From the NCBI GenBank assembly GCA_017961295.1, contig JAGCXL010000005.1:1-46004 (forward strand): a stretch of DNA of 46,004 nucleotides. The letters run 5' to 3'. Under the pieces are notes generated by a model. It ran no database searches and had not been told where the DNA came from. It saw only the letters and a program-made list of their open reading frames with translations. Numbering within the stretch: position 1 is the first letter of the stretch; every line of letters begins with the position of its first letter. Made by a program: the position numbers and the translations under genes. The stretch is from Elusimicrobiaceae bacterium. GTDB taxonomy: Bacteria > Elusimicrobiota > Elusimicrobia > Elusimicrobiales > Elusimicrobiaceae. Shown here in pieces: positions 35 through 39,325 of the stretch.

Positions 35-79
35 TCAAGACCTGTTTTCTGTCTATTTTAGGCCCATACTTTGTTGCTC
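35..79. repeat. Direct repeat, first copy (45 bp)
   Basis: This 45-base stretch recurs at 196-240 with a single difference (T at 52, C at 213). It contains the left arm of the palindromic element at 44-170 and the first seven bases of that element's core. The second copy is therefore a truncated left half of the element. Confidence 0.9.
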
Positions 80-170
80 ACTCGGGCGGATACCTCCGCG
101 CTGCCGCGCGCATTTCGACAGTATTCCTTCCTCGTTCGCGCCGCGTCTTGGCCTAAAATCGTTTGAAAAC
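44..170 (+). repeat. Structured dispersed element, copy A
   Basis: This is an imperfect palindrome with nested helices. GTTTTC (44-49) pairs with GAAAAC (165-170). A 5x5 internal loop follows, then ATTTTAGGCC (55-64) pairs with GGCCTAAAAT (150-159). A 70-bp core lies at 73-142, with an inner hairpin CGCGC-TGCC-GCGCG (97-110). The core matches 23465-23534 (minus) at about 54 of 70 positions without gaps. The flanking arms have identical spacing in both copies but different sequence. It may be a non-coding RNA family or a REP/MITE-like element; I do not recognise it. Confidence 0.75.
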
Positions 171-195
171 TCCCCGTAGCATACTTCTCAAAATT

Positions 196-240
196 TCAAG
201 ACCTGTTTTCTGCCTATTTTAGGCCCATACTTTGTTGCTC
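196..240. repeat. Direct repeat, second copy (45 bp)
   Basis: This copy is near-identical to 35-79. Its ATTTTAGGCC (216-225) and GTTTTC (205-210) can also pair with the right arm of copy A (150-159 and 165-170). That right arm therefore has two possible partners, one on each side. Confidence 0.9.
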
Positions 241-249
241 TCTTGAAAC

Positions 250-23438: not shown

Positions 23439-23561
23439 TTTCAAAGAAAAACGCACTGGTTCTAGGCGCGAAAAAGCGAAGTATACTGACGAAACGCGCG
23501 CACCAGCGCGGAGGTATTCAAGCGTTTGAGCAACAACGAAATAGTGCGTTTTACAAAGAAA
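23439..23561 (-). repeat. Structured dispersed element, copy B
   Basis: On the minus strand: TTTC (23561-23558), a 5-base loop, AAAACGCACT (23552-23543), 8 bases, a 70-base core (23534-23465), 7 bases, AGTGCGTTTT (23457-23448), a 5-base loop and GAAA (23442-23439). Core and spacings match copy A at 44-170. The inner hairpin here is CGCGC-TGGT-GCGCG. The 10-bp arms share only 2 of 10 positions with copy A but remain fully self-complementary. It begins one base after the stop of the GGDEF gene and so would be transcribed as its 3' untranslated region. Confidence 0.75.
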
Positions 23562-23562
23562 G

Positions 23563-25074
23563 TTACTCTTTGGTGTAACCTTGTACTTGGTCAGCCACTT
23601 CCCGGTACACGGCAAAAAAACCGCGTCCGTTTTTCTTGACTACGTAAAGCGCCTGGTCGGCCTTGGATAAAAGTTCTTCTGTGCTGGAAGCATCCGTTGG
23701 GTAAGAGGCAATCCCTTGGCTAATGGAAATATGGATTTCTTCCCCCCCGGTATATTTACTAGGCAACGTAAGCGCGTTGATACGTTCTTTCAAACGCTTG
23801 GCAATAATTTTAGACTCTTCACTATTAGTACTGGGGAGCATAATCACCATTTCATCGCCCCCAAAACGGCAAGGCACATCTGTTTGGCGCAAACTGCTGC
23901 GGATAATGCGACTGACTTCTTGCAAAGCCCAATCCCCGATTTGATGCCCGTAATTGTCATTGATTTGTTTGAAAAAATCAATGTCCATAATGAGCAAAGA
24001 AAGGGTTAACCCAAAACGCTTGGCACGGTAAATTTCTTCGGCAAATTTTTCATTAAAATAACGGCGTACCGGTAGGCGTGTCAGCTCGTCGTAGTTAGAA
24101 AGCTCTTGTACCCGTTCAAACAGGCGTGCGTTGTCAATTGCCAAGGCCATTTGCGAGGCAAACTGTTGCAGTGAAATAAAATCTAAATACCCAATATGCC
24201 GCCGAGAAAGTACGTTATCAAATGCTAAAAAACCTACTTTACTGCGCTGCACTTTTAAGGGGATATAAATAACGCTGCGCGTAGAACGATAAGTGGCAGC
24301 CGAGTCAAATACTTCTTTAAGAAGCCCTTGCTCCTGCTCGCTGATTTCACCTGCGTTGTGGTGCACAACCTGTCCGGAAATGTCCACACAAAGCGCACTT
24401 TTAATACGCCGGGCATACGAATCGGTTAAATACAAACGAACCCGGTCAAAGCGGAAATATTTTTGCACCCCTTGCAAGATAAGCTCCAGGCCATCGTTTA
24501 GGCGTAAAGAAGAAGCAAATACTGTTGAAAGCGCATTTAACGCTGTAGATACGTTTAAGCGCTGATTTTTGGCCTGGTCAATTTCCGTATTGCGTAGATT
24601 GTGTGAAATTTCTTGTCCCAACGCTTTAATAAGTTCTTTTTCTTGCGAAGAAAAGCCGTGCGTTTTTTTAAACCGCTCTAACCGTAACACACCTACTTTT
24701 TCCTGCATATAGGTATGCACTTCGCCCCCTTTTAATTCCATACTGGGGCGTTGCCATTTAACCAGCACATAAATAGCGGGATAACTTAAATCGGTAGAAT
24801 CGGCAATACCTTCACGCAAGAGCTGTTTTAAAAAGGCCGGCTCGCTGATAACGGAAATATCTTCCTGCTTATCCATGCAATATTCTTTTTTGCACATCAT
24901 GCGCAGAGATAAAATGGCCCGCTCTTGTTGCCAATCAAAAAAATAAATACGGTCCAATTTAAATAAATTGCGAAGTACCGGTAAGGCACTTTCCAAAAGT
25001 TCACGCTTGTTTTGAAAAGCTTGGTTTAGTTGTTTATGAAATTTATAAAGGGTATACGATTTTTTATCAAACAT
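23563..25074 (-). CDS. GAF-GAF-GGDEF diguanylate cyclase
   Basis: A 503-residue cytoplasmic protein. Two GAF-like sensor regions (about 15-160 and 180-325) precede a GGDEF domain (about 330-490). The active site reads RFGGDEMVIML (GGDEM, with the catalytic GGDE kept). An RxxD inhibitory site (RQTD) lies five residues before it, so product inhibition by c-di-GMP is expected. There is no membrane segment. It is last in the 12-gene minus-strand run, 2 bp after the solute-binding-fold gene, which suggests the two act together. c-di-GMP often controls pili, and the window encodes two pilus systems. Confidence 0.92.
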   Translation of the reverse strand: MFDKKSYTLYKFHKQLNQAFQNKRELLESALPVLRNLFKLDRIYFFDWQQERAILSLRMMCKKEYCMDKQEDISVISEPAFLKQLLREGIADSTDLSYPAIYVLVKWQRPSMELKGGEVHTYMQEKVGVLRLERFKKTHGFSSQEKELIKALGQEISHNLRNTEIDQAKNQRLNVSTALNALSTVFASSLRLNDGLELILQGVQKYFRFDRVRLYLTDSYARRIKSALCVDISGQVVHHNAGEISEQEQGLLKEVFDSAATYRSTRSVIYIPLKVQRSKVGFLAFDNVLSRRHIGYLDFISLQQFASQMALAIDNARLFERVQELSNYDELTRLPVRRYFNEKFAEEIYRAKRFGLTLSLLIMDIDFFKQINDNYGHQIGDWALQEVSRIIRSSLRQTDVPCRFGGDEMVIMLPSTNSEESKIIAKRLKERINALTLPSKYTGGEEIHISISQGIASYPTDASSTEELLSKADQALYVVKKNGRGFFAVYREVADQVQGYTKE

Positions 25075-39187: not shown

Positions 39188-39244
39188 TATTTTAAAGGAA
39201 TCGGTGTACGCAACAAAGTATTGCGTAAAATTTGGAAGAAAAAA

Positions 39245-39317
39245 TGCCCCGTACAAGAGTCGAACTCGTACCACTGGTTCCGAAGACCAGTACTCTATCC
39301 AGTTGAGCTAACGGGGC
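39245..39317 (-). tRNA. tRNA-Arg (anticodon UCG)
   Basis: A 73-base cloverleaf on the minus strand. The acceptor stem is GCCCCGT with ACGGGGC and discriminator A. The D arm has GCTC/GAGT. The anticodon stem CTGGT/ACCAG carries loop CTTCGGA, so T33 is followed by anticodon TCG, which reads CGA (Arg). The T arm is ACGAG-TTCGACT-CTTGT. CCA is not encoded, so the CCA-adding enzyme at 40011-41123 is needed. A T-run follows the 3' end. Confidence 0.97.
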
Positions 39318-39325
39318 ATAGTTTT

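Follow-up and report, generated by a model that had tools for sequence, protein, structure and literature searches.

Two related hairpins with different arms

How can the arms of a hairpin stay complementary while their sequence drifts, and how can the end of a gene be found without the gene being broken? Both questions are raised by a repeat in the stretch of Elusimicrobiaceae DNA analysed here (46,004 nt, hereafter the window), which is contig 19 of an 897-kb genome, 67% complete. A preliminary description of the window had paired two copies, A and B, and read them as a structured RNA or a hairpin mobile element.

Copy A is a complete element on the plus strand at 44–170, with a covariance model match of 127.9 bits (match range 40–174). 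Its ends form the closing pair GTTTTC/GAAAAC, and its left outer arm, ATTTTAGGCC (55–64, plus strand), is the perfect complement of its right outer arm, GGCCTAAAAT (150–159, plus strand). The core (71–142, plus strand) comprises the conserved internal loops GTTGC.../...GCGCC, an inner stem ATAC/GTAT and a GC-rich tip. Copy B, also complete (126.5 bits), occupies 23439–23561 on the minus strand, a strand not given in the preliminary description; its flanks were compared with those in sister genomes. Its outer arms, which read AAAACGCACT (23448–23457) and AGTGCGTTTT (23543–23552) on the plus strand, are likewise complementary. It begins 1 nt past the stop codon of a minus-strand gene (23563–25074) whose product looks, by eye, like a GGDEF-domain protein. 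The two cores are identical at 56 of 72 positions (78%, E = 6e-12, BLAST), and their local score of 41 compares with at most 19 in 1000 shuffles of copy B. Re-alignment returned the 54 of 70 ungapped identities counted earlier, and the arms are as first described, differing between the copies and perfectly paired within each.

Two partial copies had been overlooked. The left part of copy A, together with its 5′ flank TCAAGACCTG (35–82, plus strand), returns as a direct repeat at 196–243 (plus strand, 96% identity), which includes a half-element ending after TTTGTTGCTC. Between copy A and this repeated flank lies a spacer, or tail (171–195, plus strand); a comparable tail is found inside the insert at locus L038. 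The other partial copy is a half-element with only the tRNA-proximal part, TTTTCTTCCAAATTTTACGCAATACTTTGTTGC (39210–39242, minus strand), directly after the gene for tRNA-Arg(TCG) (39244–39318, minus strand; ARAGORN and Rfam), the target of this third, truncated copy. A different palindromic repeat, GTCATCCTGAAC...GGAATGACAAG, stands right behind the first half-element (250–323), and pieces like it appear to recur widely in genome G000 and its relatives (for example, G000:C8 and G000:C19:246-295).

A dispersed family in the Elusimicrobiaceae

Copies A and B are confirmed as members of a real dispersed family. A covariance-model search, proposed in the preliminary description and here based on 33 copies of the element, detected at least 182 copies in 34 of the 66 genomes of the genus (0–19 per genome); G070, a sister species of the element-rich G017 and G066, is free of the element. 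Twelve copies above threshold lie in the 67%-complete genome of the window itself, where BLAST with the full-length consensus found about a dozen. The similarity of A and B is not confined to this one pair, and further copies keep complementary arms. The element consists of a hairpin of ~123–125 bp and a variable tail of ~11–45 nt.

Across the order, 48 of 149 genomes carry the element; they belong to four genera, all of one family, the Elusimicrobiaceae. An exact-pattern scan of 84,980 GTDB species, narrow enough that distant relatives elsewhere could escape it, returned 28 stretches. Every one came from Elusimicrobiota, and Elusimicrobiaceae or Elusimicrobium was the label of nearly all. The element was found neither by the exact-pattern scan of IMG/VR nor in phage and plasmid collections, and database matches of the window's repeat were Elusimicrobiota metagenome-assembled genomes, mostly from rumen and gut. 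As far as searched, it is restricted to the Elusimicrobiaceae. Rfam reported only tRNA in the window at the gathering score and no relevant match at six element loci with E up to 5, and the open-access literature held no account of such repeats in Elusimicrobiota. The element explains the recurrent clutter downstream of tRNA genes in this rumen and gut lineage.

The fold is kept while the arms vary

The base of the hairpin is closed by a helix, TTTTC/GAAAA, above which both sides have a short internal loop. Next come an outer arm of 16 bp whose sequence is free, an asymmetric internal loop that is conserved (GTTGTTGC versus GCGCCTA), an inner stem ending in ATAC/GTAT and a GC-rich tip. In an alignment of 110 copies fitted to its own structure, 87.7% of stem cells are paired and 37 of 41 pairs show double-sided changes. 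Compensatory cells number 888, against 287 after shuffling; the covariation score is 0.498, against 0.140 after shuffling and at most 0.14 with the partner slid by 1–3 columns. The inner stem covaries too. A plain MAFFT alignment of 33 copies, made without structure, agrees (87.1% of cells paired; 225 double changes versus 70 shuffled). Folding of single copies is unremarkable (DNA z of about −2.8 for copy A and −0.8 for copy B); the case for the fold is comparative. At orthologous sites, namely the 3′ end of xer and a terminator locus, the arms differ between species and are still complementary; these pairs are the cleanest evidence for compensatory change.

The preliminary description had held that compensatory change implies selection on the fold. 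This is plausible but falls short of proof, since fold-back correction during replication could also preserve complementarity. Fold-back correction alone would, however, erase the conserved mismatched internal loops within the stem, and recognition of the fold therefore appears to be the better reading. Structural RNAs carry more G-U pairs than are seen here: when the outer arms were folded with RNA energies, G-U accounted for 73 of 2270 pairs (~3%). This rarity favours a DNA hairpin over an RNA, whether it is selection for the hairpin or fold-back correction that maintains it.

Two variations of the inner stem were observed. In the structure-free alignment, one subfamily has symmetric TC/TC mismatches at up to three places, which are partly Watson–Crick pairs in another subfamily. 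Locus L052 (G000:C9:33344-33477) combines the usual arms and loop motifs with an inner stem and a tip of unrelated sequence (GTACTTGCGGCCC/GGGCCGCTTAGTAC).

Elements often stand at the 3′ ends of genes

Among 107 distinct flanked copies, 45 have a tRNA gene directly on their 5′ side, 0–4 nt away (10 nt in two cases). These tRNA-linked copies represent 17 anticodons and share one orientation throughout. Of the 62 copies without an adjoining tRNA, 37 have a same-strand gene on their left, with the stop codon ~1 nt from the border or slightly overlapping it in 13. Several copies lie directly behind an intrinsic terminator (L016, L034, L112, L122 and L026).

In 57 of the 107 copies, 12 nt or more of the 5′ side recur exactly past the 3′ border, usually 11–80 nt beyond it; at tRNAs the repeated segment typically starts near the T-loop and extends to the 3′ end. 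The gene for tRNA-Glu(CTC) captures the event. In seven species (G000, G070, G063, G066, G069, G009 and G073) the site is empty, and GTTCGA-ATCTCGTACGGGACGTTTTTT adjoins the downstream flank without interruption. In G017, 140 bp consisting of the element and an 18-nt tail, TCTCTCTTTACTTGCGTG, are inserted between two copies of that 21-mer, and G026 holds an independent insertion with the same 21-mer, other arms and another tail. Insertion with a 21-bp target duplication leaves the tRNA intact. Tail sequences are not conserved between copies, and those of the two tRNA-Glu insertions had no match elsewhere among the loci compared.

The 3′ end of xer is occupied in G000/G017, G069 and G063 and empty in G066, G009, G070 and G073. 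At this site in G069, the flanking repeat carries that species' own sequence variant, which speaks for a duplication made on the spot rather than for att sites delivered on a circle. The tRNA ends are identical between species, so circle-borne att sites could still account for the repeats at tRNAs. In G063, the core of the element at the xer locus (L172) is interrupted by a GTCAT...ATGAC palindromic repeat. An empty site with a target duplication, a dispersed family and strong covariation bear out the earlier proposal of a hairpin mobile element, and we regard its anatomy, distribution and mobility as well supported. The idea that a T-run serves as a primer was rejected; several targets have no T-run.

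Half-elements and relationships among copies

Copies cut at one end mostly retain the tRNA-proximal half, with the break between arm and hairpin tip; right halves are few (L024, L027, L034, L109 and L141). The loci were picked because they hold the element, and such counts do not give genome-wide frequencies. At many loci the repeat behind the tail runs on into a left half with the same arms. At L101, L110, L114 and L128 this left half has different arms, indicating an older element behind a newer one. Locus L093 (G073:C23) holds two full elements and a left half, head-to-tail, with almost no spacer.

Copies within one genome are diverse, their best matches being mostly 70–89% identical. Across species, by contrast with this diversity, a given tRNA can carry almost identical copies: 97% at tRNA-Cys (G000/G073), 98% at tRNA-Phe (G019/G064) and 100% at tRNA-Ser (G009/G069). 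The nearest relative in another genome has the same anticodon in 18 of 45 cases, compared with 3.0 in shuffles (maximum 11 in 300). This indicates that inheritance or exchange in place accounts for many copies, and that moves to new sites are rarer. Two tRNA-Ser copies, L020 and L089, have outer arms in common and different cores, which shows that the core can be exchanged independently of the arms.

Search for a partner enzyme

The preliminary description had pointed to transposases of the RAYT/IS200 type. Their domain, Y1_Tnp, is missing from most element-rich genomes (G066, G017, G073, G011, G064, G069 and G006), and this partner was dropped. Target-primed reverse transcription was rejected because PF00078 is absent in 28 of the 34 element-bearing genomes, including the near-complete G073, G011 and G064 and most of those with at least eight copies, and a casposase because Cas1 occurs in none of the nine genomes with at least eight copies. 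An extra tyrosine recombinase also seems unlikely: integrase number and copy number are uncorrelated (rho 0.02, p 0.89), and the element-rich G017, G066 and G026 encode only two PF00589 proteins each, the number expected for XerC and XerD alone. In G066 and G017, the two richest genomes with 19 and 15 copies, respectively, no reverse transcriptase, Cas1, RAYT or extra integrase was found. The search covered the Y1, reverse transcriptase, Cas1 and tyrosine recombinase families, and the richest genomes are 72–85% complete; the enzyme could well have escaped it. Within the 4–20 kb of sequence available downstream of 13 tRNA-linked copies, no larger autonomous element was seen between the hairpin and a repeat of the tRNA end.

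Comparison with known elements

Like bacterial miniature inverted-repeat transposable elements (MITEs) such as BOX/RUP of pneumococcus and QMITE2 of Coxiella, which have fold-back ends and target direct repeats, the element occurs as short, non-coding, dispersed copies and duplicates its target site. MITE terminal repeats, however, have a conserved sequence that they share with a parent insertion sequence, whereas the arms of the element vary freely and keep only complementarity, and no parent was seen in the stretches available; its conserved terminal inverted repeats are limited to the 4–6 bp of the TTTTC/GAAAA end. It also differs from MITEs in targeting gene 3′ ends. The repeats of tyrT (rtT) in Escherichia coli, directly downstream of the gene, include the tRNA gene 3′ end and are found at a single locus; they are not known to have variable, covarying arms.

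The target duplication of the present element is about 12–21 bp and variable, compared with 7–9 bp for QMITE2 (PMC10969869). REP sequences and BIMEs, with their RAYT (TnpA-REP), are also imperfect extragenic DNA hairpins and are probably recognised as folded single strands. REPs, however, measure 20–40 bp (PMC3733652), are linked to RAYTs and mostly carry a GTAG- or CGTC-type tag, whereas the present element is 123 bp long and duplicates its target, and most element-rich genomes have no Y1 transposase. Casposons target the extreme 3′ end of tRNA genes and duplicate 14–15 bp there (PMC6977970), and the element shares both the tRNA 3′-end target and the long duplication. By contrast, casposons have conserved terminal repeats and their own Cas1, which element-rich genomes lack. 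Integron attC sites are recombination hairpins read as folded DNA (PMC3053210), a likeness offset by the absence of cassette genes from the element and by its targeting of tRNA ends rather than attI; no core sites of the RYYYAAC/GTTRRRY type (R/L) were seen by eye at the hairpin base in the 33-copy alignment. In its workings the element is MITE-like, and its choice of target recalls casposons; it is assigned to neither because it lacks a defining feature of each (conserved terminal repeats and Cas1, respectively).

A probable fold-recognised DNA element and its alternatives

We consider it probable that the hairpin is a non-autonomous DNA element which an enzyme supplied in trans recognises by its fold, in extruded or single-stranded DNA rather than in RNA, and inserts through a staggered cut around the target gene's 3′ end. 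The staggered cut would duplicate the gene end, leaving the gene functional, and later rearrangements across the hairpin would leave half-elements with the tRNA-proximal half. Against this explanation stand the lack of a mobilising enzyme among the families searched, the non-conserved tails, the many copies that were inherited or transferred in place instead of arriving by new transposition, and the variability of the duplications, which comprise ~7 to 18 nt of tRNA sequence and may continue into the element itself; no standard DDE transposase gives such variable duplications. More tentatively, the family may represent a new class of mobile DNA hairpin, read by its fold and not its end sequence, and placed exactly at a gene's 3′ boundary (tRNA, stop codon or terminator). 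The inserting enzyme would then be neither a relative of RAYT, Cas1 or reverse transcriptase nor an extra integrase. Should that enzyme be new, it would insert DNA by reading its structure, with a natural safe harbour at its disposal. More than 100 alignable copies, empty sites and orthologous pairs make up the comparative case.

The flanking repeats would have another meaning if small circles carrying a tRNA 3′ end recombined via a tyrosine recombinase, as genomic islands do; they would then represent attL/attR identity and not target duplication. Many integrases use the segment from T-loop to 3′ end, the elements group by anticodon across species with near-identical units at the same tRNA (100% for tRNA-Ser in G009 and G069), and a second repeat family (F, below) ends exactly at the T-loop of many tRNAs. 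We nevertheless judge such integration unlikely: where elements stand at stop codons and terminators, the duplicated sequence is that of the site itself, as at the G069-specific xer end, the start of the repeat varies by ~11 nt between events, and the integrase counts given above offer no candidate beyond two PF00589 proteins in G017, G066 and G026. A structured RNA or 3′-UTR element, selected at transcript ends as a processing, termination or stability signal and dispersed only secondarily, would account for the single orientation of copies behind tRNAs and genes, for the strong covariation and for the arms of some copies, which begin with A4 and end with T4–5 like bidirectional terminators. 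This alternative, left open in the preliminary description, has become improbable with the ~3% of G-U pairs, the lack of an Rfam match, the many copies without a T-run, the presence of copies in only about half of the species of the genus and the clean empty sites at essential tRNA genes; insertion polymorphism shows mobility.

Copying by the host alone would dispense with a transposase. Replication stalled at tRNA genes, terminators or hairpins might switch template to another copy and back slightly upstream, which would explain duplications of variable length and would suit G066 and G017, where reverse transcriptase, Cas1, RAYT and extra integrase are all absent. Duplicated left halves, truncations ending before the hairpin tip and random-looking tails also fit. 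Tails should then match the flank of a donor, yet the two tested match no other compared locus, and neither the exact 3′-end preference nor the single orientation would be explained; we hold host-driven copying to be very unlikely.

Other tRNA-linked repeats

At L142, L116, L139, L022, L130 and L108 a second repeat family linked to tRNAs was observed, about 165 bp long. Its end, ...CGAGCCGACTTGTGACC or ...TTTACCGGAAGG, coincides exactly with the T-loop copy of several different tRNAs, and it often stands behind the hairpin element. At L008 (G000:C13) and L108 (G069:C66), cargo genes lie upstream of the element, where the end of tRNA-Ser is expected; by eye they encode an ankyrin-repeat protein and a Sel1-like protein. 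Both loci have AGCACCTTGCTACYCAAACTACAC just ahead of the element, which suggests a third kind of tRNA-integrated unit.
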